A stretch of 64,000 nucleotides of DNA. Source: a bacterium. Lineage in GTDB: Bacteria > Verrucomicrobiota > Kiritimatiellia > CAIKKV01 > CAIYGI01. The DNA lies in the NCBI GenBank assembly GCA_025360745.1, contig JANYBP010000079.1:1-64000 (forward strand), written 5' to 3'. Under the pieces are notes generated by a model. It had not been told where the DNA came from. It saw only the letters and a program-made list of their open reading frames with translations, and did no database searches. Positions 11,407 to 27,086 of this stretch are shown here, one piece after another; positions within the stretch are counted from its first letter, which is position 1; every line of letters begins with the position of its first letter. A program made the position numbers and the translations under genes.

Positions 11407-11425
11407 TTCAAGCGTAACGCTTGAA
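11407..11425. promoter_or_regulatory. Palindromic operator candidate
   Basis: TTCAAGCG-TAA-CGCTTGAA is a perfect 8-bp inverted repeat with a 3-nt centre. It lies at about +7 to +25 of the predicted transcript and directly before the helicase ribosome site. The first gene carries an N-terminal XRE-type HTH, so autorepression through this site is an obvious hypothesis. Confidence 0.6.
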
Positions 11426-11441
11426 CGGACTGGACGCTACG

Positions 11442-14400
11442 ATGACAGAACGCTATGTGATAGGGGCGAAGCCGGGCGATGATTACTCCGAGCGCATCAA
11501 GCGCCTGCGAGGAGATATCCGCCTGACCCAACAGGCGCTCGCAGGCCGCTTGGGCGTCTCGTTTGCCACCGTCAACCGGTGGGAGAACAAACAGACCAAG
11601 CCGTCTCGACTCTACTGGAACCAACTTCAGCAACTCGAAATGCGCGTGGCCGAGGAGTCCGTCCCCTACGGCAAGCCGATGGCGACGCCGCCCGCGATCC
11701 TGGACTTCACCGCCCAGCCGGAGGTCGTGAAGGTCCTGGCCGAGGGTGAACGCCTTTCCTTCGGCCACCTGATGAACCCAGCCTTTGCCACCGAGATCTC
11801 CAGCATCGATCCCCTGCCGCACCAGCGGATTGCCGTCTACGACCACATGCTCAAGCAGCCCCGGCTGCGATTCCTGTTGGCCGATGACGCGGGCGCGGGC
11901 AAAACCATCATGTCCGGCCTCTACATCCGTGAGATGTTGTCCCGCAGACTGTTGCGCCGGATTCTGATCGTCACCCCCGCCGGGCTGGTGGGCAACTGGC
12001 GGCGCGAGTTGCTGACGCTGTTCAACCTTCCGTTTCGCATAGTCACGGGCGCGGATGCGCGGGCGGACAGCCCGTTCCAGGGCGAGGAGGGCGACCGGAT
12101 CATCATCAGCGTTGATACGCTATCGAGCCCGCGCATGTTCGCGCGCCTCCGTGAAACGACCGTCGTGCCCTACGACCTCGTCATCTTCGACGAGGCGCAC
12201 AAGCTGGCAGCCGACCGGGGCAACGATCTGCGCGTCCGCAAGACTGACCGCTACTGCTTGGCCGAGGCTATCGCGGGTGTCCAGACTCAGAACGGTCATT
12301 GGCGACTGGGCTGGAGCGCCCATCATCTCCTGCTACTGACCGCCACCCCGCACATGGGCAAGGACTATCCGTACTACGCCGTGTGGCGACTTCTCGAACC
12401 CGAGATGCTAGCGACCCCGGATGCGTTCGACGAGTTTCCGCGCGAGCGCAGACAAGCGCATTTCATCCGGCGAACCAAGGAAGAAATGGTCTTCCTGGAT
12501 GGCCGACCGCTCTACCCGAAACGCATGTCCGACACGCTCGGCTACGAACTCAGCCAGGGCCCCGCCGTCGCCCAAGGGGCTATGGCGGGCGCGGACATCA
12601 GCGAGCAGAAGCTCTACGACGAGACCACGGACTACCTGCGCTTCGTCTACAACAAGGCGAAGCTGCTGAACCGTGAGGCGGCACGGCTCGCCATGAGCGT
12701 GTTCCAGCGACGTCTGGCCAGTTCAACCTACGCGCTTCTCCGGTCGTTCGAGCGCCGCATGGAGAAGCTGAACGCGCTGATCGACGATATCCAGGACGGA
12801 AAGATCACCACCGAGCAGATGATGACCTTTCAGGCTCGCCTCCACGAGGACGACCTTCTCGACACCACCAGTGCGGACGACGAAGGTGACGAGGAACACG
12901 GCGAAGCCCACGAGGCCGCCGAGGATCGCCTGCTGCAAGGCGTGGTCGCCGCATCCCTCACCGACCTGCTGGCCGAGAAGGAACAGGTCAAGGAACTGCT
13001 CGATCTGGCCCGCAAAGTCCACGACGGCGGCCACGAGTCGAAGTTCGACAAGCTCCGGGAAGTCCTGACCGACTCCCGCTTCAGCGGCGAGAAGTTCATC
13101 GTCTTCACCGAGCACCGGGACACGCTGGAGTTCCTCGTGCGGCGGCTCGGCGGAATGGGTTATACCGGCCAAATCGCCCAGATTCACGGCGGCATGCAGT
13201 ATCTCCAGCGCGAAGACGAGGTGGAGCGTTTCCGAAAGCCGATTGACGAGGGCGGCGCCCGCTTTCTCATCTGCACGGATGCCGCGGGCGAAGGCATTAA
13301 TCTCCAATTCTGCTGGATCATGATCAACTACGACGTGCCTTGGAATCCCGCCCGCTTGGAGCAGCGCATGGGCCGCATTCACCGTTACGGCCAGAAGCAC
13401 GACCCCGTCGTCATCATGAATCTGGTCGCGCCGTCCACCCGCGAGGGCAAGGTTCTGAAGGTGCTGCTCGACAAGCTGGAGAAGATTCGCAAGGAACTCC
13501 AGTCCGACAAGGTCTTCGACTGCATCGGGCGCCTGTTCGAGGGCGTCTCCATCAAGCGGTACATGGAGCTTGCGGTAACGGAAGACGCCGACGAGGTGGC
13601 GCTGCAACTGGACGGCCGCCTGACCAAGGAGCAGATCGAGGCCGTGGCCAAGCGCGAGAAGTCCCTCTACGGAACCGGCGGCGACGTGGCGAAAGAACTC
13701 CCGCGCCTCCGTGTCAGCATGGAGCAGGAAGTCTATTTCCGGTTGATGCCGGGGTACATTCGCCAGTACATCCAACAGGCCGCCCCGCTTGTGGACATTG
13801 AGATCGACGGCGACATGGACGGAGTCTTCTCGCTCCGCTCTCTCCGGTTCGGCGCGATGGACCCGCTGCTTCCGGTGCTGGAACTGTACCCCGAAAAGTC
13901 CCGCGACAACTTCTCTGTCGTCCGCCCGACAGACCGCAAGGACGTGATCTGGCTCCATCCCGGCGAGCCGGTATTCGAGCGGTTCCGCGCTCTGACAACC
14001 GAGCGCCTGGCGGAGATCGGCACACGCGGCGCGGTCTTCATCGACCCGTCCGCCACCAAGCCCTACCTCTTCCACATGGCGCTTATTTCGGTGGTGCGCC
14101 GTGCCGACCCGGAACTGCCCGACTTCGCGCAGGAAGAGGTCCTCGAATGCCGCCTTGTCGGCATCTGCCAGCAAGAAGGCTCGGAGATCTGCGTCTGCCC
14201 CGTCGAGCATCTTCTACTTCTGAAGGGAGGACACGGCCTCCCTGCTTCGGCCCAACGGCTGGCCGTGGCCGCCACCGAGCAGAAGGAACTCGCCCGCGCC
14301 TATCTGGCCGAGCGGATCGCCCGCGGGATGGCCCTCGAACGCAAGAAGACCCTTGCCGACAGCATCCCGGAACGCGAGGGATTCATCCGCCGGGGCTTCG

Positions 14401-15044
14401 ACTACCAGGAATCGGAACTGGCCACCGCCCGCGCCAAGCATTCCGACAAGGCCCGCAACGGCAACCGCAAGGCGATGGAGGCGTTGGACGAGGTCAAGCG
14501 CCAGCAGCGCGAACTTGCCGCGCGCCGCCAAAACGCCCTGGCCGTCCTGCATCGTGAAACCGACCTGATCGCGCCGGGCGAAGTCACCTTCGTGGCCCAT
14601 GCACTCGTGGTGCCGTCATCCGACCCGGCTGACATCGAGCAACACGACAAGAATATCGAGCTGGTCGCCATGCAGTTAGCGCAGGCGTTCGAGGAAGCGG
14701 CCGGGGCCAGAGTCCTGGACGTCCACACGCCAGACCTCGCCCGTCAGGCTGGCCTGCCCGAGAACCCGGGCTTCGATCTTCTGTCGATTCGACCTGACAA
14801 CGTGAAGCGATCCATCGAAGTCAAGGGCCGCGCCACGATCGGCGACATCGAGGTCTCCGCCAACGAGTGGGCCAAGGCGTGCAACATGCGCCAGGGCTAC
14901 TGGCTCTATGCCGTGTACAACTGCGCCACGCCCAACCCGCGCCTGGCCCGCGTCCAGGATCCGTTCGGGGCCCTGCTGGCAAAGGCCAAGGGGAGCGTGC
15001 TGGTCAGCCACGCGCAGGTCGCGGAAGCGGAGGTGGCCACATGA
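11442..15044 (+). CDS. HTH-SNF2-family helicase with DUF3883 domain (Hma/DISARM-like helicase)
   Basis: A 1200-residue defence helicase. Residues about 15-58 form an XRE-type HTH (TQQALAGRLGVSFATVNRWE). Superfamily 2 motifs follow: Walker A-like DDAGAGKT (about 149), Walker B VIFDEAHKL (about 249), SAHHLLLLTATP, then the second RecA domain with FTEHRDTLEFL, TDAAGEGINLQ and RMGRIHRYGQ. A long middle region leads to DUF3883 near the C-terminus (GFDLLSIRP, IEVKGRA), a PDDEXK-like fold. Such helicases are core to DISARM- and Hma-type systems. I chose ATG 11442, because the TTG at 11421 lies inside the palindrome. The stop overlaps the next start (ATGA). Confidence 0.85.
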   Translation: MTERYVIGAKPGDDYSERIKRLRGDIRLTQQALAGRLGVSFATVNRWENKQTKPSRLYWNQLQQLEMRVAEESVPYGKPMATPPAILDFTAQPEVVKVLAEGERLSFGHLMNPAFATEISSIDPLPHQRIAVYDHMLKQPRLRFLLADDAGAGKTIMSGLYIREMLSRRLLRRILIVTPAGLVGNWRRELLTLFNLPFRIVTGADARADSPFQGEEGDRIIISVDTLSSPRMFARLRETTVVPYDLVIFDEAHKLAADRGNDLRVRKTDRYCLAEAIAGVQTQNGHWRLGWSAHHLLLLTATPHMGKDYPYYAVWRLLEPEMLATPDAFDEFPRERRQAHFIRRTKEEMVFLDGRPLYPKRMSDTLGYELSQGPAVAQGAMAGADISEQKLYDETTDYLRFVYNKAKLLNREAARLAMSVFQRRLASSTYALLRSFERRMEKLNALIDDIQDGKITTEQMMTFQARLHEDDLLDTTSADDEGDEEHGEAHEAAEDRLLQGVVAASLTDLLAEKEQVKELLDLARKVHDGGHESKFDKLREVLTDSRFSGEKFIVFTEHRDTLEFLVRRLGGMGYTGQIAQIHGGMQYLQREDEVERFRKPIDEGGARFLICTDAAGEGINLQFCWIMINYDVPWNPARLEQRMGRIHRYGQKHDPVVIMNLVAPSTREGKVLKVLLDKLEKIRKELQSDKVFDCIGRLFEGVSIKRYMELAVTEDADEVALQLDGRLTKEQIEAVAKREKSLYGTGGDVAKELPRLRVSMEQEVYFRLMPGYIRQYIQQAAPLVDIEIDGDMDGVFSLRSLRFGAMDPLLPVLELYPEKSRDNFSVVRPTDRKDVIWLHPGEPVFERFRALTTERLAEIGTRGAVFIDPSATKPYLFHMALISVVRRADPELPDFAQEEVLECRLVGICQQEGSEICVCPVEHLLLLKGGHGLPASAQRLAVAATEQKELARAYLAERIARGMALERKKTLADSIPEREGFIRRGFDYQESELATARAKHSDKARNGNRKAMEALDEVKRQQRELAARRQNALAVLHRETDLIAPGEVTFVAHALVVPSSDPADIEQHDKNIELVAMQLAQAFEEAAGARVLDVHTPDLARQAGLPENPGFDLLSIRPDNVKRSIEVKGRATIGDIEVSANEWAKACNMRQGYWLYAVYNCATPNPRLARVQDPFGALLAKAKGSVLVSHAQVAEAEVAT

Positions 15045-16009
15045 ACACGTCATTCTCGATAGCGCCACGGCATGCCGTGGCGCTATCGACCGGGCGCAAA
15101 CACCTCCGCATGCAGGGCTGGGATTTCACCAGTCCCGGCTGGTATTTCCTGACCGTCTGCACCAAGAACATGCGCTCCGAATTCGGTACGGTCGTCAACG
15201 GCCGCATGACCCTCAACGAGGCCGGCCGGATCGCCGACAAGTTCTGGCGCGAAATCCCGCGTCATTTTCCACGCGCCGTCGTGGACGAACAGGTCGTGAT
15301 GCCCAACCATGTGCATGGCCTGCTGCGCCTCACGGAAACGGGCTGGGATATCGATGGCCTCACGGCACGCCGTGAGGCCTTCGGCAAACCGGTGGCCGGT
15401 TCCGTGCCCACCATCATGCGCTCCTACAAAGGCGCCGTTACCCGGGCACTGGGCCGGAACCCCTGGCATCGCCGGTTCTACGAAGTCCGGGCGCGCGACG
15501 ATCTGGCGCGCACCAACATTCGCAACTACATCCGCCGCAATCCGGGGAACTTCGACGCCGTGGTGAACGGCGGCGAGCCGCAGAGTCTTGGCAACAAGGC
15601 CGTGCTGGACTTGCCCAAGGTGGGCTTTCTGGCCTCGCGCGGGCAGGCGAACCCGCATGGAAACCTGCCGCTCAAACCGGGCGAAGCCATCATTTCGGGA
15701 TTTCTCTCGCCCATGGAACGTGCCGTTTTCCGTGCCGGCCTGGCCAGCAAACGCCCCATGATCTGGGTGCTGCCCCATGGCCTCAATACCCTCACGGCAT
15801 GCCGCTCTGCCATTGAAGAAGGCAGACTGCTTGTGCTCTCGCCCTTCGAGACCGCCATCGAAGCCCCCAGCGCTCGCCGGGCGGTGTGGTGCAACCAGTA
15901 CGTGCTGGCCCACTGCAACCGCGCGGTGGTGGGCCACCTCAACCCCGATGGCATGCTCGCCTGCATCCTCCACGAGGCCGATCCCGATATGGAGATTGTA
16001 CGCCTATGA
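15041..16009 (+). CDS. REP-associated (HUH, Y1) transposase-like domain fused to a DprA-like tail
   Basis: A 322-residue protein. Residues 25-175 match the Y1 transposase fold of RAYT/TnpA-REP proteins: SPGWYFLTVCTKN, the HUH pair His90/His92 in VMPNHVHGLL, a candidate catalytic Tyr129 (IMRSYKGAVTR), then NIRNYIRRNP. The remaining part (about 190-322) resembles a Rossmann/DprA-like domain (GEAIISGFLSPMERAVFRAG, RLLVLSPFE). Three GCATGC-centred or similar palindromes lie inside the gene, one spanning codons 6-16. It overlaps the helicase and the next gene by 4 bp each (ATGA), so it is built into the operon and is not a loose insertion. Housekeeping of the operon's palindromes or a domesticated nuclease role are both possible. 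Confidence 0.7.
   Translation: MNTSFSIAPRHAVALSTGRKHLRMQGWDFTSPGWYFLTVCTKNMRSEFGTVVNGRMTLNEAGRIADKFWREIPRHFPRAVVDEQVVMPNHVHGLLRLTETGWDIDGLTARREAFGKPVAGSVPTIMRSYKGAVTRALGRNPWHRRFYEVRARDDLARTNIRNYIRRNPGNFDAVVNGGEPQSLGNKAVLDLPKVGFLASRGQANPHGNLPLKPGEAIISGFLSPMERAVFRAGLASKRPMIWVLPHGLNTLTACRSAIEEGRLLVLSPFETAIEAPSARRAVWCNQYVLAHCNRAVVGHLNPDGMLACILHEADPDMEIVRL
15057..15088. repeat. Perfect 32-bp palindrome P1
   Basis: Left half CGATAGCGCCACGGCA, right half its exact reverse complement. It lies within codons 6-16 of the HUH-transposase-like gene and encodes the Pro-Arg-His-Ala-Val stretch. It looks like a REP-type hairpin. Confidence 0.85.
15356..15379. repeat. Palindrome P2
   Basis: GGCCTCACGGC - AC - GCCGTGAGGCC, an 11-bp perfect stem inside the HUH-transposase-like gene. 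It shares the CACGGC core with P1. Confidence 0.75.
15795..15804. repeat. Palindrome P3 (short)
   Basis: CGGCATGCCG in the context CTCACGGCATGCCGCTCT. It is a decayed copy of the same core, inside the DprA-like part of the HUH gene. Confidence 0.5.
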
Positions 16010-17235
16010 ACGCCACTTCTCCTTTGTCGCCCCTGTCCATACATCCACGGCATGCCGTGGAGGCCAAGCCCCCAAAGCCAATTGTGCCCGTCGCCACTGA
16101 TTTGGCGCTCTCCATCGAAACGCCCGACACCGGCAAACTGCATCTTTCCTACTGGGATGTGTGGTACGCCTTGCTGGCTATCGACATGTTCGCCGGCAAT
16201 CTCGACAGGTTGGCACTCGAACTGCGCGAGTTACGCGGCGTGTACCGCTCGGAAGACGCCAAACGCAAGTTGAGCCACCTGCGGGACTTGCAGCAGCGGC
16301 TGGCAAGAGCCGGCATCGGGGTGTCGGATATCCTGGCCGCCCTGCCGCCGGACCTGACGAAAGCCGAACGCCGCCGGGCATACGGCCGCATTATCAAACA
16401 CAACCAGCGCTCGCGCGAGCTTTCCGAAGCCATGCGGATTCTTCCCGCAGAACGGTTCGGCGACATCGCCCTGCGCGGTCTGTGGACGCCATTTCCAGTT
16501 TCGCCGGAGTCCTATTACGAACGTCTCCGAGCCAAGTTTAACTGGGAGCGCTTTCACGGCGAAAACGCATCCTGGGGTCTGGCCAAGAAGCTGGACGCGG
16601 CTACCGAAGCCGCTCTCAAACTCGAAGATAAGGGGATGTTCGGGGACGCCCTCGCCTCGCTACGCGCCACGCTGACAGTAGCCATTGAGTTGGTCGAAAT
16701 CGCCGACGACTCCTTCGGTTGCATCGGCCAGAGTTTCCAGGAGACCTTCGAGCGCTATCTCGTCCTTCCCCGCCAGAAGACCGGCGTCTCGATCGAGGGC
16801 TTCCTCGCGGACCTGCTTGAATTGCTCGTGTTTGAAGATTACGGCTTCACCGACGGGCATACCGACGGCTTCTTTGCGTCCCTTTCTGGCGAGGAGGGCG
16901 ACTTCTGTCTGGCCTATCTTCGCGGCAGACTCACCGTCTTGTCGGCCTGGGATTTGGACTATCAAGCCGAGGAGGCTCTGACCCTGATCGGGCAGGTAGC
17001 CGCCGAACAGAAACGGTTCGATTCGTTCGAGGCGCTGGCCGGCGAAATGGGATCGAGGAAATGGCAGCGGATCATCCGCCTGGCGGACGCGTCCGTTCGC
17101 GCCCGCAAACGCGATCTCGCGGACCGTATTTTCCAAGCCGCGCTGGCCGGCGAGGACGGCGGAGACGCGGATTTTCTGGCCAAGAAACACGCCCAACTCC
17201 TGCACGGCAAGTGGAGCCCCGACCCGCGAAAGTGA
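16006..17235 (+). CDS. Unknown protein of the defence operon (409 aa)
   Basis: I do not recognise a family. The start ATG 16006 overlaps the HUH gene stop. After a short Pro-rich leader (to about residue 30, containing the palindrome-encoded PRHAV), the protein is almost wholly helical. A conserved-looking block is KLHLSYWDVWYALLAIDMFA; then come charged helices and several degenerate helical hairpin units reminiscent of TPR or SWIM-less scaffold proteins (FGDALASLRATLTVAIELVE, RKRDLADRIFQAALAG). There are no catalytic motifs, membrane segments or signal peptide. Its place between helicase and TrlF-like ATPase and its translational coupling to the HUH gene suggest a scaffold or partner protein of the defence machinery. 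Confidence 0.6.
   Translation: MNATSPLSPLSIHPRHAVEAKPPKPIVPVATDLALSIETPDTGKLHLSYWDVWYALLAIDMFAGNLDRLALELRELRGVYRSEDAKRKLSHLRDLQQRLARAGIGVSDILAALPPDLTKAERRRAYGRIIKHNQRSRELSEAMRILPAERFGDIALRGLWTPFPVSPESYYERLRAKFNWERFHGENASWGLAKKLDAATEAALKLEDKGMFGDALASLRATLTVAIELVEIADDSFGCIGQSFQETFERYLVLPRQKTGVSIEGFLADLLELLVFEDYGFTDGHTDGFFASLSGEEGDFCLAYLRGRLTVLSAWDLDYQAEEALTLIGQVAAEQKRFDSFEALAGEMGSRKWQRIIRLADASVRARKRDLADRIFQAALAGEDGGDADFLAKKHAQLLHGKWSPDPRK
16044..16061. repeat. Palindrome P4
   Basis: TCCACGGCA-TGCCGTGGA, a perfect 18-bp palindrome at codons 14-19 of the 409-aa gene. It again encodes Pro-Arg-His-Ala-Val. Confidence 0.8.
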
Positions 17236-17243
17236 CAACACCC

Positions 17244-17404
17244 ATGAAACCCGCCCCAAAAACACTTCCCCCATCCACACCGCCACGGCATGCCGGACTG
17301 CCCGACAATCCTGACTTCGATCTGCTTGCCATCCGTTCCTCTTCCGCGCCAAGGGGAGCGTGCTTGTCAGCGCGTCCGCCGTTGCCATGGCGGAGGAGGC
17401 ATAG
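17244..17404 (+). pseudogene. Remnant of a second helicase 3' end (DUF3883 scar)
   Basis: The frame from ATG 17244 reads into HAGLPDNPDFDLLAIRS, matching QAGLPENPGFDLLSIRP of the intact helicase. After a deletion of roughly 75 codons and a frame change, AKGSVLVSASAVAMAEEA and a stop match the intact ending AKGSVLVSHAQVAEAEVAT. The ends of the DUF3883 tail are therefore kept and its middle is lost. It is a scar of a duplicated helicase terminus, located after the HUH and 409-aa genes. Confidence 0.75.
17286..17295. repeat. Palindrome P5 (short)
   Basis: CGGCATGCCG in the context CGCCACGGCATGCCGGAC, at codons 14-18 of the helicase remnant. It encodes Pro-Arg-His-Ala as in P1 and P4. Confidence 0.6.
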
Positions 17405-17455
17405 CCAATGAACATCGCTGGCAAACGCACACTCAATCGAACTGATCTGACCGGG

Positions 17456-20222: not shown

Positions 20223-21397
20223 AACTCATAGAACTGATCAGTCGGGGCGAAGACAGCCGGACACAGTTCAAGCAGACCGTCACAAATCCGGAATCCGTAG
20301 CGGCCGACCTTGTGGCCTTTTCCAATAGCAACGGTGGCCGTATCCTCATCGGCGTCAATGACCAGGGGACCGTTATCGGTCTGTCGCCAGCCGATATTCG
20401 CAGAATCAACCAATTGATTTCCAACACGGCAACCAATTGCGTGCGGCCATCGGTTAACCCTACGACCGAGAATATCTCTGCCGGAGGGGTGCTGGTGATG
20501 GTCGTTACAGTTCAGGCGGGCATTTCAAAACCCTATGCCGACTACAATGGCGTGTTCTGGGTCAAGTCTGGAGCGGACAAGCGTAAGGTGACTTCCCGCG
20601 AGGAAGTCCAACGGATGCTCCAAACCGCTGAGCTGGTCCATGCGGACGAGGTGCCAGTGGAGGGAACCACGAACGGCGACATTGACTTGGAGCACTTTCG
20701 GACGTTCTTCCTGAAGCAGTACGGCAAGCGGCAGTTCGACGAGTCTTTCAGCGATGATCCCGACCGACCTGGGATTGCTTTGGGGCAGTTGTTGAACAAT
20801 CTCGGCCTGGCGCGTGAAGCGTGTCTCAATCTGGCCGGGCTCATGATCTTCGGGCGTCAACCCCAACGCCATCTTCCTGCCTTCGTAGTTAAGGCAGTTG
20901 CCTTTGTCGGCAACGACTCAGCAGGCGACAAGTATCGGGACAGTCAGGATATCGAGGGGTGTTTACGGGACTTGTTCAGGCAAACCATGTCATTTATTAC
21001 CCGTAACCTGCGGCGGATGCAGGGTGGCAAAGGCATCAATACTGAAGGCGACTTGGAGATTCCGTTGCCGGCTCTGGAGGAGCTTGTAGTCAACATGCTG
21101 CTTCACCGGGACTACTTCATCTCCGCGCCATGGCGAGTGTTCCTGTTCGACAATCGTATTGAGTTAATCAGTCCCGGCGCGCTCCCCAACAATCTTACTG
21201 TCGAGAACATTCGGAACGGCGTGTCTGTGATACGGAATCCATTAATTGCGTCATTCGCGACAAAGGGTGACGAACTGCCGTATCGCGGCATTGGTACGGG
21301 TGTCCGCCGTGCTCTCGCGTCTGTGCCTGCTCTCGAACTGGATTCGGCCCACGAGCGCAACCTGTTCACTGCACGGATTCCGAGGCAACCTGCATGA
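20210..21397 (+). CDS. AlbA_2 (Schlafen-type) ATP-binding protein
   Basis: A 395-residue protein with an N-terminal AlbA_2 domain (EDSRTQFKQTV, LVAFSNSNGGRILIGVNDQG). The C-terminal HATPase_c_4 region has EELVVNMLLHRDYF and YRGIGTGVRRAL. Proteins of this kind are labelled ATP-dependent regulators or Schlafen-like. They occur beside restriction-modification and other defence genes, where nucleic-acid binding or a regulatory role is assumed. It is coupled to the TrlF-like gene by overlap and to the truncated methyltransferase by ATGA. Confidence 0.75.
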   Translation: MEAIELIELISRGEDSRTQFKQTVTNPESVAADLVAFSNSNGGRILIGVNDQGTVIGLSPADIRRINQLISNTATNCVRPSVNPTTENISAGGVLVMVVTVQAGISKPYADYNGVFWVKSGADKRKVTSREEVQRMLQTAELVHADEVPVEGTTNGDIDLEHFRTFFLKQYGKRQFDESFSDDPDRPGIALGQLLNNLGLAREACLNLAGLMIFGRQPQRHLPAFVVKAVAFVGNDSAGDKYRDSQDIEGCLRDLFRQTMSFITRNLRRMQGGKGINTEGDLEIPLPALEELVVNMLLHRDYFISAPWRVFLFDNRIELISPGALPNNLTVENIRNGVSVIRNPLIASFATKGDELPYRGIGTGVRRALASVPALELDSAHERNLFTARIPRQPA

Positions 21398-21773
21398 CCG
21401 ACCACCCCCGCCTCATCGAACACGCCTTCCCGCTGAAGCAGACTTCGCTGGACTCGGTCCACGAGAAGAACGTGCGGCATGGGCATATCTCAACGCTGCA
21501 CATCTGGCCGGCCCGGCGGCCGTTGGCGGCGTGCCGGGCGGCGCTGATTGCGACGCTCCTGCCCGATCCCGGAACGCCGGAAGGCCGGAAGGCGCTGTGC
21601 GAGAAGATCGGCGGCAGGGTGGTCAAGAAGGTGGAACATAAGAAGATGCCCGACGGCAGCATCGTCGAGCGCGAGAAGGAAGAGACCGAGGGCGGCATTC
21701 TCCACTGGGGCAGAGAGACGAAAAACAAGGCCGACCTGGATTGGTTCCGGGCAGAAATTATGAAGGCGTATGG
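21394..21773 (+). repeat. 380-bp direct repeat: methyltransferase 5' end, left copy
   Basis: Aligns without gaps to 23865-24244; differences are scattered, mostly third-codon changes near the start (for example GACCGACCAC against GACTGATCAC). The high identity suggests a recent duplication or ongoing gene conversion. Confidence 0.9.
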
Positions 21774-21825
21774 GAACGGGTGCCAAAGGCGCAACAATTG
21801 TTGGGGACCCTGTTGGCGAAAATGA
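21394..21825 (+). pseudogene. Truncated DUF1156 methyltransferase (N-terminal copy)
   Basis: The first 126 codons equal the intact methyltransferase at 23865 except for three residues (Thr17/Ala, His84/Arg, Met123/Lys). Then 17 unrelated codons lead to a stop. All catalytic motifs (DPFAGGG, DPPYY) are missing. It could still make a 143-aa N-terminal DUF1156 peptide, since its start and junction (ATGA with the AlbA_2 gene) are intact. Best read as a recombination scar. Confidence 0.85.
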
Positions 21826-23199: not shown

Positions 23200-23868
23200 A
23201 TGCATTTTGAGATACTCGTTGAAGATCAGTCGGGGAAGGTGGCGCTCGATATCCTCGTACCAAAGATTGTTGGGGCCGACCACACGTTCATTGTGCACTC
23301 CTATAAGGGAATCGGCAGGATTCCCAGTAACATGCGTGACTGCAAGCACGCATCGAAGCGAATGTTGATGGACAATTTGCCAAAACTGCTGAAGGGTTAT
23401 GGCCGAACTCAGGCCGGGAGGCTTGGTTTTCCCTCATTAGTGGTTCTGATTTGTGACTTAGATGACAACTGTTTGCGAGGGTTCAGGCAAGAATTCCTTG
23501 CGATCCTTGACTCCTGTCATCCGAAACCGCGGGCTCGATTCTGCCTTGCTGTCGAAGAGGGTGAAGCCTGGTTTCTCGGGGATCTTCCTGCGGTCAAAAG
23601 GGCATATCCGAATGCCAGTGACTCCGTCCTTGGCTCATATGCGAACGACAGCATTTGCGGCACATGGGAAAGACTGGCTGATGCCATTTGTCCGGGCGGT
23701 TCATTAGCGTTGTCAGCCAACGGATGGCAAGCGGTCGGTGCGGGAAAGTCTGCTTGGTCGAAGAGAATTCCGCCACATATGGAAATAGATCGGAACCTCT
23801 CACCAAGCTTCTGCTTTTTCCGAAAGACTCTCATGGCTGAAATCGGGATTATTGAGGAGACGCCATGA
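23200..23868 (+). CDS. DUF4276 (TOPRIM-like) effector candidate, first pair
   Basis: A 222-residue protein. The start MHFEILVEDQSGKVALDILV holds the acidic first-strand residue, and VVLICDLDDN (about 84-92) the second acidic cluster. LAVEEGEAWFLGD (about 114-126) is the DUF4276 hallmark. Together these resemble a TOPRIM-like nuclease site. The ATPase upstream is its probable sensor partner. The stop overlaps the methyltransferase start (ATGA). Confidence 0.7.
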   Translation: MHFEILVEDQSGKVALDILVPKIVGADHTFIVHSYKGIGRIPSNMRDCKHASKRMLMDNLPKLLKGYGRTQAGRLGFPSLVVLICDLDDNCLRGFRQEFLAILDSCHPKPRARFCLAVEEGEAWFLGDLPAVKRAYPNASDSVLGSYANDSICGTWERLADAICPGGSLALSANGWQAVGAGKSAWSKRIPPHMEIDRNLSPSFCFFRKTLMAEIGIIEETP

Positions 23869-24244
23869 CTGATCACCCCCGCCTCATCGAACATGCCTTT
23901 CCGCTGAAGCAGGCTTCCTTGGATTCCGTCCACGAGAAGAATGTGCGGCATGGGCATATCTCGACGCTGCACATCTGGCCGGCGCGGCGGCCGTTGGCGG
24001 CGTGCCGGGCGGCGCTGATTGCGACGCTCCTGCCCGATCCCGGAACGCCGGAAGGCCGGAAGGCGCTGTGCGAGAAGATCGGCGGCAGGGTGGTCAAGAA
24101 GGTGGAACGTAAGAAGATGCCCGACGGCAGCATCGTCGAGCGCGAGAAGGAAGAGACCGAGGGCGGTATTCTCCACTGGGGCAGAGAGACGAAAAACAAG
24201 GCCGACCTGGATTGGTTCCGGGCGGAAATCAAGAAGGCGTATGG
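23865..24244 (+). repeat. 380-bp direct repeat: methyltransferase 5' end, right copy
   Basis: Functional copy of the repeat at 21394-21773; alignment is lost after GGCGTATGG in both copies. Confidence 0.9.
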
Positions 24245-27086
24245 CGGACGGGCACCGAAGGTTCTGGACCCGTTCGCGGGCGGCGGCGCGATCCCGCTCG
24301 AAGCCATGCGCCTCGGTTGCGAGGCGACGGCCGTGGACATCAATCCGGTGGCGTGGTTCATCCTCAAATGTACGTTGGAGTACCCGCAGAAACTGGCCGG
24401 GAAGACCCACCCCCTCCCGGACTTCATCCTCGAGAACGAGGAGTTCATGAACGCCTTCTACAAGGCGCACCCGCATTTGGTCGGCCGGACCAAGAAGACG
24501 AAGAAGCAGGCGGTTGATGAGGCCGGCATGTTCCCGATGATGGTGAAGGAAGACTCTGGCCGCGCTCCCAAAGCCGATCTCGCGTGGCACGTCCGGGCAT
24601 GGGGTCAGTGGGTGCTGGAACGTGCCCGCCGTGAGTTGGCCCAGTTCTATCCCACCTATGCCGACTTTGAACCTTTGAAGCTGACCGCCAAAGATATCGC
24701 CTCCGCGAAGCCTTATGAAAAGCGGCCCATGCAACTGGCGCCGCTCAAGGACAACGGGATGCCGGACATGGACGCACTCAACAAGGAGTTCAGCCAAGAA
24801 TACCTCGCTGACAAGAATAACCCCCGTTGGGTGGCCAAGCCGACCGTGGCCTATCTCTGGGCTCGAACAGTAACGTGCAAGAACTGCCGCGCGGAGATTC
24901 CGTTGCTCCGCACTACGTGGCTATCCAAAGAGCCCGGCCACAGAAGTCGTCTGGCAATTGTCCCTCGTCTCGATAGATCGGGTGTCGATTTCAAATTGGA
25001 GACGAACGTTCCCCAACAAGGGGGCAATAACGCTGCAAGGCGTGAACACGATAAGCGGATCGGCCAAGGGACAACTACACGTTCGGGAGCACGATGCCCA
25101 TGCTGCAACACGATAGCCACAACGGAAGACATTCAACAGTCAGGAATAGCAGGTCGGACTGGTGAACGAATGGTGGCCCTCGTCGTGGAGCGACAAGGCA
25201 CGAAAGGGTTTCGAGTTCCCCAGGTTGCGGACACAGAGGCTTACGTTCTTGCGACAAGATCATTGAAGGAGATTGTGGCTCGCGATTTCATTGGACCGCT
25301 AACTGAACCGATTGACTCGCGCCGGCCCTCTCCAAACTCTCGTGGCCTATCCGGCCTCACTCGGTACGGCATAACGACATTTGATCAAGTCTTTAACAGA
25401 AGACAACAATGCGCACTGTTTGTGCTATCAGCACTTGTGCGAGATCTTCCGAAGCACTTGGCACAAACACGAGTTGATAGCACCTTGCAAACAACAGTAG
25501 CCGACTACTTGGCTTTGAGCATTGATAAGATCGCTGATTACGACAGTTCGTTCTGCACTTGGCATATAAACAGACAAACCATTGGTCACACATTCGCTCG
25601 TTATGCACTACCGATGACGAGCGACTATGCAGAATGCAACCCGATCGGTGCCGTCACTGGCGGATTCGCGAGTGCAGTGACGTGGGTGGCTATGGTCATC
25701 GATCATCTGATGCACGTTTCCGCGGCAAGTGCCAAAGTCTGTTTTGGGTCAGCTTCGGATCAGAGGCAGGAGAAATACGATATCGTCCTCGGTGACCCTC
25801 CATATTATGACTCGATTCCCTACGCTGACATTAGCGACTTCTTCTACATCTGGCTTCGTCGATCGATTGGTGGACGGTTTCGTGACGCATTCTCCACCAC
25901 AGTAGTTGATCGATCACGGGAAATCATTCAGCACGCGGGGCGAATGGATGGCGACAATACCCTCGCGAAGCAAGTGTACGAAAACGGCATGGCTGAATCA
26001 TTCGTGCGATGCGCTCAGCAACTAGCAGATGATGGTCGCATGGTGATCGTCTTCGCTCATAAACAGCCTGATGCATGGGAGACCCTGGCTGCATCAATCA
26101 TCCGTGCAGGCTTTACTGTTGATGCCAGCTGGCCGATCCAAACGGAAATGCCCAACAAAACGGCTGGCGGTGCTCGTTTGGCCTCTTCCATCTGGCTCGT
26201 CTGCAAGAAGCGCCCAGCAACAGCACGGCCTGGATGGGACAACCAGGTCCTCGATGACATGCGTACAAACATCCGGGCGATGCTGCGGGAGTTCTGGGAC
26301 GCGGGCATTCGGGGCCCGGACTTCGTATGGGCCGCCACCGGCCCGGCGATGGAGGCATACAGCAAGCATCCGGTGGTGAAGAAGGCGAACGAGCCCGGTC
26401 CGATGACGGTCAGCGAGTTCCTGACCCATGTCCGCCGGATCGTGGTGGATTTCGTGGTCGGCCGCGTCCTCTCCGGCGACAAAGAAGGCGACGCCGATAT
26501 TGCCGCCGCCGACCGGCTGGACGAGCCGACAGCCTACTACCTCCTCCATCGGCATGATTTCGGCATGGACGAGGCCCCGGCGGGCGCGTGCATCCTGTAC
26601 GCCATCTCGTGCGGCATTTCGGACCGGGAACTGGCCCAGACGTGGGACTTGATCGGCTTCACGAAGGGCAAGGGCAAAGACGACGAGGATGAGGAGGCCG
26701 ACGCCGACGCAGAGGCGGACGCCGAGACAGAGGAAGATTCCGGCAGCAAGGTGAAGCTCAAGACTTGGGCGCAGCGCAAGGGCAAGTCGCTCGGATACGA
26801 AGCGCCGGGTGGTAAGGCAATTCCGCTGATTGACCGGGTGCATTGTCTGATGCACCTCTGGAAGGCGGGCGATTTGTCGAAGGTGGATGGGTATCTGGAC
26901 GGCAACGGGTTACGGCGGCATGAGCTGTTCAAGCGGCTTCTACAGTCGCTTATCGAACTCTCCCCGCACGGGAGCGAGGAACGGTCGCTCATGGAGTCCA
27001 TCAGCAATCACGTTGGGGCGCGGGGGGCTATGAAAGACGATCAGAGACTGATAGATTTTGCGGAGAACACGGAGGAATCATCATGA
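23865..27086 (+). CDS. DUF1156-family DNA methyltransferase
   Basis: A 1073-residue amino-methyltransferase, the modification component of the system. The N-terminal DUF1156 region holds HGHISTLHIWPARRPLAACR. Motif I is VLDPFAGGGAIPLEAM (about 132-147), a zinc-finger-like pair CKNC (about 338) and CPCC (about 411) follows, motif IV is VLGDPPYYDSIPYAD (about 643), and a Glu/Asp-rich linker lies near 945-965. DPPY motifs methylate adenine N6 or cytosine N4. The middle third (nt about 24860-26250) has lower GC and different codon use from the ends, as expected if the recognition region was exchanged. It is coupled by ATGA at both ends. Confidence 0.85.
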   Translation: MTDHPRLIEHAFPLKQASLDSVHEKNVRHGHISTLHIWPARRPLAACRAALIATLLPDPGTPEGRKALCEKIGGRVVKKVERKKMPDGSIVEREKEETEGGILHWGRETKNKADLDWFRAEIKKAYGGRAPKVLDPFAGGGAIPLEAMRLGCEATAVDINPVAWFILKCTLEYPQKLAGKTHPLPDFILENEEFMNAFYKAHPHLVGRTKKTKKQAVDEAGMFPMMVKEDSGRAPKADLAWHVRAWGQWVLERARRELAQFYPTYADFEPLKLTAKDIASAKPYEKRPMQLAPLKDNGMPDMDALNKEFSQEYLADKNNPRWVAKPTVAYLWARTVTCKNCRAEIPLLRTTWLSKEPGHRSRLAIVPRLDRSGVDFKLETNVPQQGGNNAARREHDKRIGQGTTTRSGARCPCCNTIATTEDIQQSGIAGRTGERMVALVVERQGTKGFRVPQVADTEAYVLATRSLKEIVARDFIGPLTEPIDSRRPSPNSRGLSGLTRYGITTFDQVFNRRQQCALFVLSALVRDLPKHLAQTRVDSTLQTTVADYLALSIDKIADYDSSFCTWHINRQTIGHTFARYALPMTSDYAECNPIGAVTGGFASAVTWVAMVIDHLMHVSAASAKVCFGSASDQRQEKYDIVLGDPPYYDSIPYADISDFFYIWLRRSIGGRFRDAFSTTVVDRSREIIQHAGRMDGDNTLAKQVYENGMAESFVRCAQQLADDGRMVIVFAHKQPDAWETLAASIIRAGFTVDASWPIQTEMPNKTAGGARLASSIWLVCKKRPATARPGWDNQVLDDMRTNIRAMLREFWDAGIRGPDFVWAATGPAMEAYSKHPVVKKANEPGPMTVSEFLTHVRRIVVDFVVGRVLSGDKEGDADIAAADRLDEPTAYYLLHRHDFGMDEAPAGACILYAISCGISDRELAQTWDLIGFTKGKGKDDEDEEADADAEADAETEEDSGSKVKLKTWAQRKGKSLGYEAPGGKAIPLIDRVHCLMHLWKAGDLSKVDGYLDGNGLRRHELFKRLLQSLIELSPHGSEERSLMESISNHVGARGAMKDDQRLIDFAENTEESS

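Follow-up and report, generated by a model that had tools for sequence, protein, structure and literature searches.

The short palindromes in and around a RAYT-like gene of this bacterium are probably REPs of the very transposase whose gene holds them. Two copies, P1 and P4, bound the gene, and two others, P2 and P3, are embedded within it in frame. By analogy with characterized TnpAREP enzymes, the likeliest reading is that the palindromes serve as substrates of the encoded enzyme and that the extra copies are tolerated in loops of the protein. The spread of REPs and the role of domesticated RAYT nucleases are still poorly understood. The gene lies in a window of 64 kb, which is the whole stretch of DNA that was analysed.

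The HUH gene (15041-16009, forward strand) encodes a protein of 322 aa, with a Y1 nuclease at about residues 19-176 and a DprA-like domain at about residues 181-322. GGAGG, a likely ribosome-binding site by its sequence (15029-15033, forward strand), lies 7 nt upstream of ATG15041. Alignment of the homologs places the HUH motif NHVH at residues 89-92 (15305-15316, forward strand) and the motif YIRRNP at residues 163-168, with Y163 as the putative catalytic tyrosine (15527-15529, forward strand), and both motifs are conserved across the alignment. The protein scores 37.2 bits against the NCBI equivalog REP_Tyr_transpos (NF047646), below the cut-off of 80, over residues 32-168. A profile of 22 homologs matches E. 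coli TnpAREP (4er8, E 1.6e-6) in its N-terminal part and DprA (3uqz, E 1.2e-4) in its C-terminal part. In the predicted structure (mean pLDDT 82.5), the nuclease half retrieves 4er8 (E 1.7e-6) and IS608-type transposases with Foldseek, and the C-terminal half, with its Rossmann-type fold, retrieves DprA (E 1e-5) and ShosA. The Pfam family DNA_processg_A is matched, weakly (E 0.085), by one of the 22 homologs. Judged by sequence profile and predicted fold, the gene is a RAYT (TnpAREP)-like nuclease fused to a C-terminal DprA-like domain.

Five palindromes, listed without a strand, were located. P1 (15056-15089), the 5' flanking copy, is a perfect palindrome of 34 bp; the first-pass annotation had recognized it as perfect, giving its size as 32 bp. 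P2 (15356-15379) is an internal copy with an 11-bp stem and a 2-nt loop. P3 (core 15794-15805), another internal copy, lies in the DprA-like domain and has decayed by loss of its right arm; its counterparts are intact in several relatives. Both had been placed further inside the HUH gene, where they indeed are. P4 (16044-16061), the 3' flanking copy, follows the stop codon of the HUH gene by about 35 nt and is perfect over 18 bp, exactly as first annotated. P5 (17286-17295) is a decayed single copy adjoining a helicase remnant, and what holds of its earlier description is the 10-bp core and not a hairpin. No other perfect palindrome of the window is as long as P1 or P4. Folded as single-stranded DNA with DNA parameters, P1 and P2 are far more stable than shuffled DNA (z -6.2 and -5.5), P4 is so to a smaller degree (z -2.9), and P3 and P5 no longer form a hairpin. 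Two segments of the HUH protein are modelled with a confidence below 50, and P1 and P2 fall there, P2 in a loop at residues 105-115 of the predicted structure.

A search of the 3.0-Mb genome finds three exact copies of the ACGGCATGCCGT core. Two of them belong to this locus, which, like the folding of the hairpins, goes beyond chance, and the third is without complementary arms. Intact copies are confined to this locus, with no dispersed family, and the core with at most one mismatch occurs 33 times genome-wide against 20 for the reversed control. With so small an excess, a general dispersed palindrome of the HIP1 type was rejected. The same genome carries further RAYT-DprA frames at the ends of contigs C76 and C6, each with GTAGGGGCGACACGCATGTCGCCC within it (L189:1517-1540 and L190:342-365); they are possibly two halves of one gene.

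Homologs of 60-80% identity were found in assemblies named Kiritimatiellae, Lentisphaerae, Verrucomicrobia or PVC group. In these genes, palindromes with ACGGCATGCCGT-type cores occupy four places: the 5' edge before the Y1 domain, the loop after the HUH strand, a loop of the DprA domain, and a site shortly past the stop codon. Not every homolog has all four. REPs on both gene flanks are also present in L018, L023 and L024, though not around every homolog, and P1 is missing in L019, L021, L056 and L136, which keep internal copies. Among the copies, the core is constant and the arms vary yet stay complementary. At arm positions -2 and -3, each of the four Watson-Crick pair types is represented, and pairing holds in 23 of the 25 copies at either position; these copies were chosen partly for pairing, so that the proportions lean upward and the diversity of pair types is unaffected. 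The deviating loop of P2 (CACG) suggests a constraint on the stem rather than on duplex symmetry. The earlier proposal that palindromes inside coding sequence are linked to REP biology is well supported by the same palindromes standing in the same places of homologous RAYT genes with covarying arms. Copies scattered at random, with no tie to the HUH gene, were not seen.

The hairpins are concentrated in this subfamily of genes. In 28 homologous genes, 38 strong hairpins fall within the aligned gene, a density of 1.48/kb vs 0.27/kb in flanking DNA, and dinucleotide shuffles give 3.3 hairpins on average and 8 at most. Hairpin centres within one gene resemble each other, at a distance of 3.57 against 6.78 when permuted (0/1000 permutations). 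The core type also tracks the gene tree, with seven of the ACGGCATGCCGT genes in one clade (100/99) and L144 at another place in the tree. More distant fused homologs have GTAGGGGC...GCCC-type palindromes in similar regions. Matches to GTAGGGGCG..CGCCC number 13 in seven genomes of the class, and 10 of them lie inside RAYT-DprA genes, although such genes make up very little of the DNA; the reversed control gives at least as many matches in total. Among 26 ordinary RAYTs examined from the phylum, 5 had internal hairpins (7 in total), which lay for the most part at the 5' edge; L179 is the exception. In the Spirosoma and Leptolinea relatives, palindromes occur only outside the gene core. A Spirosoma plasmid carries a RAYT without a DprA-like domain, where a 34-bp palindrome with GTAG feet and the same GGCATGCC centre overlaps the stop codon (L199:1487-1520).

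The internal copies might instead be passengers, REPs that entered the loops long ago and whose arms are kept complementary by template switching (quasipalindrome correction), without any use to the gene. This explanation is possible but less likely. Template switching is known to make imperfect inverted repeats perfect and to mimic compensatory change (PMC8794818, PMC7202029). The tandem copies in L020 and L021 show slippage of a replication type, and P3, P5 and the L022 copies have decayed without the gene breaking. A core that stays fixed while the arms vary is, however, expected for sequence-specific recognition. Passengers would also not account readily for cores that the hairpins of one gene have in common and whose type tracks the gene tree, nor for the rarity of such hairpins in ordinary RAYTs of the phylum and in flanking genes. 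Either selection or template switching may maintain the arm complementarity itself. The tandem array at L020:4878-5041 comprises six REP copies with a spacing of 30 bp (ten codons) at the 5' edge of a homologous gene, in one open frame. In L018, the counterparts of P1 and P4 share an identical stretch of more than 30 bp. The tandem copies and this identity point to recent local copying.

The position of P1 suggests another role. If translation starts at ATG15041, P1 begins 15 nt past it and forms codons 6-17 of the HUH gene, and P1 is probably translated as part of this gene because GGAGG stands seven bases upstream. Some relatives are without P1, and a start after its place is possible there. 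Messages of IS200-type transposases are restrained by 5' structure. The hairpins, P1 above all, might similarly lower translation of the transposase. The well-spaced GGAGG and ATG shortly before P1, the presence of an ATG shortly before P1 in L018, L020 and L025 as well, and the high stability of P1 (calculated with DNA parameters) are all in keeping with this idea. It is possible for P1 but quite unlikely as the explanation of the hairpins, as the four homologs that have no P1 keep internal copies far from the start, and regulation of the mRNA leaves a sequence-fixed core unexplained.

The first-pass annotation had laid its emphasis on gene starts, as if marked by a palindromic element that also supplies a Pro-Arg-His-Ala peptide. 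PRHA is indeed the reading of P1, P4 and P5 in the three ORFs named, not more than about 20 codons from the first ATG. The peptide is not shared by the other copies, however, since P2 reads TARR and P3 reads TACR, and their counterparts read likewise (TARR/TACR). The 409-aa ORF that follows the HUH gene (16006-17235, forward strand) has no family match, and its conserved part begins at residue 21, after P4: one partial homolog was found in 334 genomes of the class, and it aligns from residue 21, past the stretch encoded by P4. The third supposed gene, at P5, is a pseudogene, a frameshifted 3'-end remnant of a helicase (17296-17411, forward strand) related by sequence comparison to the HmaA-like gene, with no sign of translation. 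The dispersed copies in the genome G201 occur in every reading frame and on both strands. A peptide-driven explanation was rejected from the reading frames, and a gene-start element is altogether very improbable. PRHA appears in P1, P4 and P5 because of the frame into which each copy fell; the peptide and the pattern of three gene starts are incidental.

Dispersed families exist in two other genomes, which further supports the link to REPs. The core is present in 32 copies in G201 against 1 for the reversed control, and in 48 copies in G083 against 0, with a GTAG foot on many of the latter. In G083 (L053, L119-L130), the 48 dispersed palindromes with a GGCATGCC core are accompanied by a second dispersed family, GTAGGGGCGGACCTATGTGTCCGCCC. 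Neither family was seen at the two RAYT-DprA loci of that genome, L131 and L132, which bear a different palindrome. The 48 copies were accordingly dropped as support for a pairing of core and enzyme, and core and enzyme are evidently not always paired. A phage or plasmid vehicle for the gene was considered and rejected: viral contigs gave no match to the HUH gene, and the matches in one phage and two plasmid records span only about half of the query.

The foot beside the palindromes differs between groups. In the clade of the window it is TCxATAG-like, whereas more distant homologs have a GTAG-like foot. The motif FYEVR[AV] occurs in ten genes, every one of them in the ACGGCATGCCGT group and with TCxATAG-like flanks or remnants thereof; most genes with an xYxxIV-type motif have GTAGGGGC-like feet. 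The FYEVR[AV] segment corresponds by position to the residues of E. coli TnpAREP that contact the GTAG guide (PMC6006769). The ten genes are close relatives, so the association of the ATAG-like foot with this segment probably goes back to one event, and the match between motif and foot stands as a prediction and not as proof.

In-frame REPs inside RAYT genes are already known. Quentin et al. (2018) described them in tnpAREP genes of subclass 2.4 (RAYT group 4), between HuH and Y (PMC6006769). The gene of the window resembles that subclass in its class 2 HUH and Tyr motifs, in the in-frame position of P2 and its counterparts between HuH and Y, and in its long palindromic REPs with a foot possible at both ends. 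The key motifs of subclass 2.4 are NH[IFV]H, WQ and YIxNNP; here they are NHVH, WH (WQ in several relatives) and YIRRNP. Subclass 2.4 proteins, however, have a median of 194 aa and no extension, whereas the protein of the window has 322 aa and the C-terminal DprA-like domain. Also unlike subclass 2.4, REPs are found here at the N-terminal edge and within the extra domain, the clade has an ATAG-like foot, and several genomes contain few or no dispersed copies. A literature search, mostly of journals open without subscription, returned no description of a RAYT or HUH fusion to DprA, nor of REPs in a DprA-like domain and near the N-terminus, an ATAG-like foot, or REPs mostly confined to the transposase gene, as in several genomes here.

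The locus also resembles the REPtrons of Gammaproteobacteria, in which, as with E. coli TnpAREP (PDB 4ER8; PMC8266576), a HUH nuclease stands beside cognate hairpins. The E. coli REPs are extragenic and abundant and have a GTAG foot, whereas internal REPs and a DprA-like domain are absent there. Like classical REPs, the palindromes of the window form hairpins with compensatory changes in the arms; unlike them, they have an ATAG-like foot instead of GT[AG]G, and the genome contains three exact cores rather than many extragenic copies. Rickettsia palindromic elements and intragenic GTAG/CGTC REPs (PMC3733652) are likewise short palindromes in frame within genes. Those elements are dispersed in many host genes, whereas intact copies are found here mainly in or beside the transposase gene. 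The C-terminal half shares a predicted Rossmann-type fold and weak profile similarity with DprA and ShosA (PDB 3UQZ, 8ZVA), but none of the other DprA domains is present, and this half is joined to a HUH nuclease.

TnpAREP recognizes a single-stranded hairpin together with a tetranucleotide and cleaves at CT or CA (PMC8266576). Applying the E. coli mode of recognition as a model, the locus is best read as a REP-RAYT-REP unit with P1 and P4 at the two ends of the gene. P2 and P3 are further copies in frame, one where the protein loops out after the HUH motif and the other in a DprA-domain loop. As single-stranded DNA, each intact copy folds into a hairpin: the stem is ACGG/CCGT, the loop is of the CATG type, and the arms vary but remain complementary. 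Where lagging-strand DNA is exposed, the enzyme presumably binds these structures and nicks close by with Tyr163, and it can presumably copy or move the element locally. The hairpin would be upheld by selection for recognition or by arm-to-arm repair. Internal copies could persist because they lie in loops, are free of stop codons and keep the frame.

A more specific proposal is that the HUH domain recognizes the REPs in and around its own ORF and that the DprA-like domain then passes the strand to RecA, so that the gene spreads or repairs itself by homing or gene conversion and not by classical transposition. It is put forward tentatively and is rather doubtful as a whole, and the handling of the strand by the DprA-like domain, which is known from a predicted fold, is speculation. 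If the proposal is true, the embedded hairpins would be functional sites of the gene and not passengers. Because the domain joined to this RAYT looks like a RecA-loading mediator, a route from nick to recombination suggests itself. Protein-substrate pairs for working out the rules of recognition are also at hand in genes that carry the sites presumed to be recognized by their own products, since the cores differ by lineage and the foot has changed naturally from GTAG-like to ATAG-like.

The neighbours of the gene in the window are not found beside it in close relatives. A HmaA-like SNF2 helicase gene (11421-15044, forward strand) lies upstream of the REP-RAYT-REP unit. At the loci of the relatives, neither the 409-aa gene nor the helicase adjoins the RAYT-DprA gene, and a shared operon with either of them was rejected on this ground. 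The P1-RAYT-P4 unit therefore appears to have ended up between the HmaA-like helicase and the 409-aa gene, a position that puts P4 where the 409-aa ORF begins. The surroundings (11421-33551) represent a Hma-type defence operon, with matches to the HmaA, HmaB and HmaC models. Four insertions break it up, namely the RAYT unit, a gene for a TrlF-family ATPase, an AlbA/Schlafen gene and a pair resembling HEC-01A/B. Two stretches of about 398 bp with 94% identity (21393-21789 and 23864-24261) contain the 5' end of the HmaB-like methylase twice and flank the HEC-01-like pair, as if this pair had been inserted with duplication of the HmaB-like 5' end.
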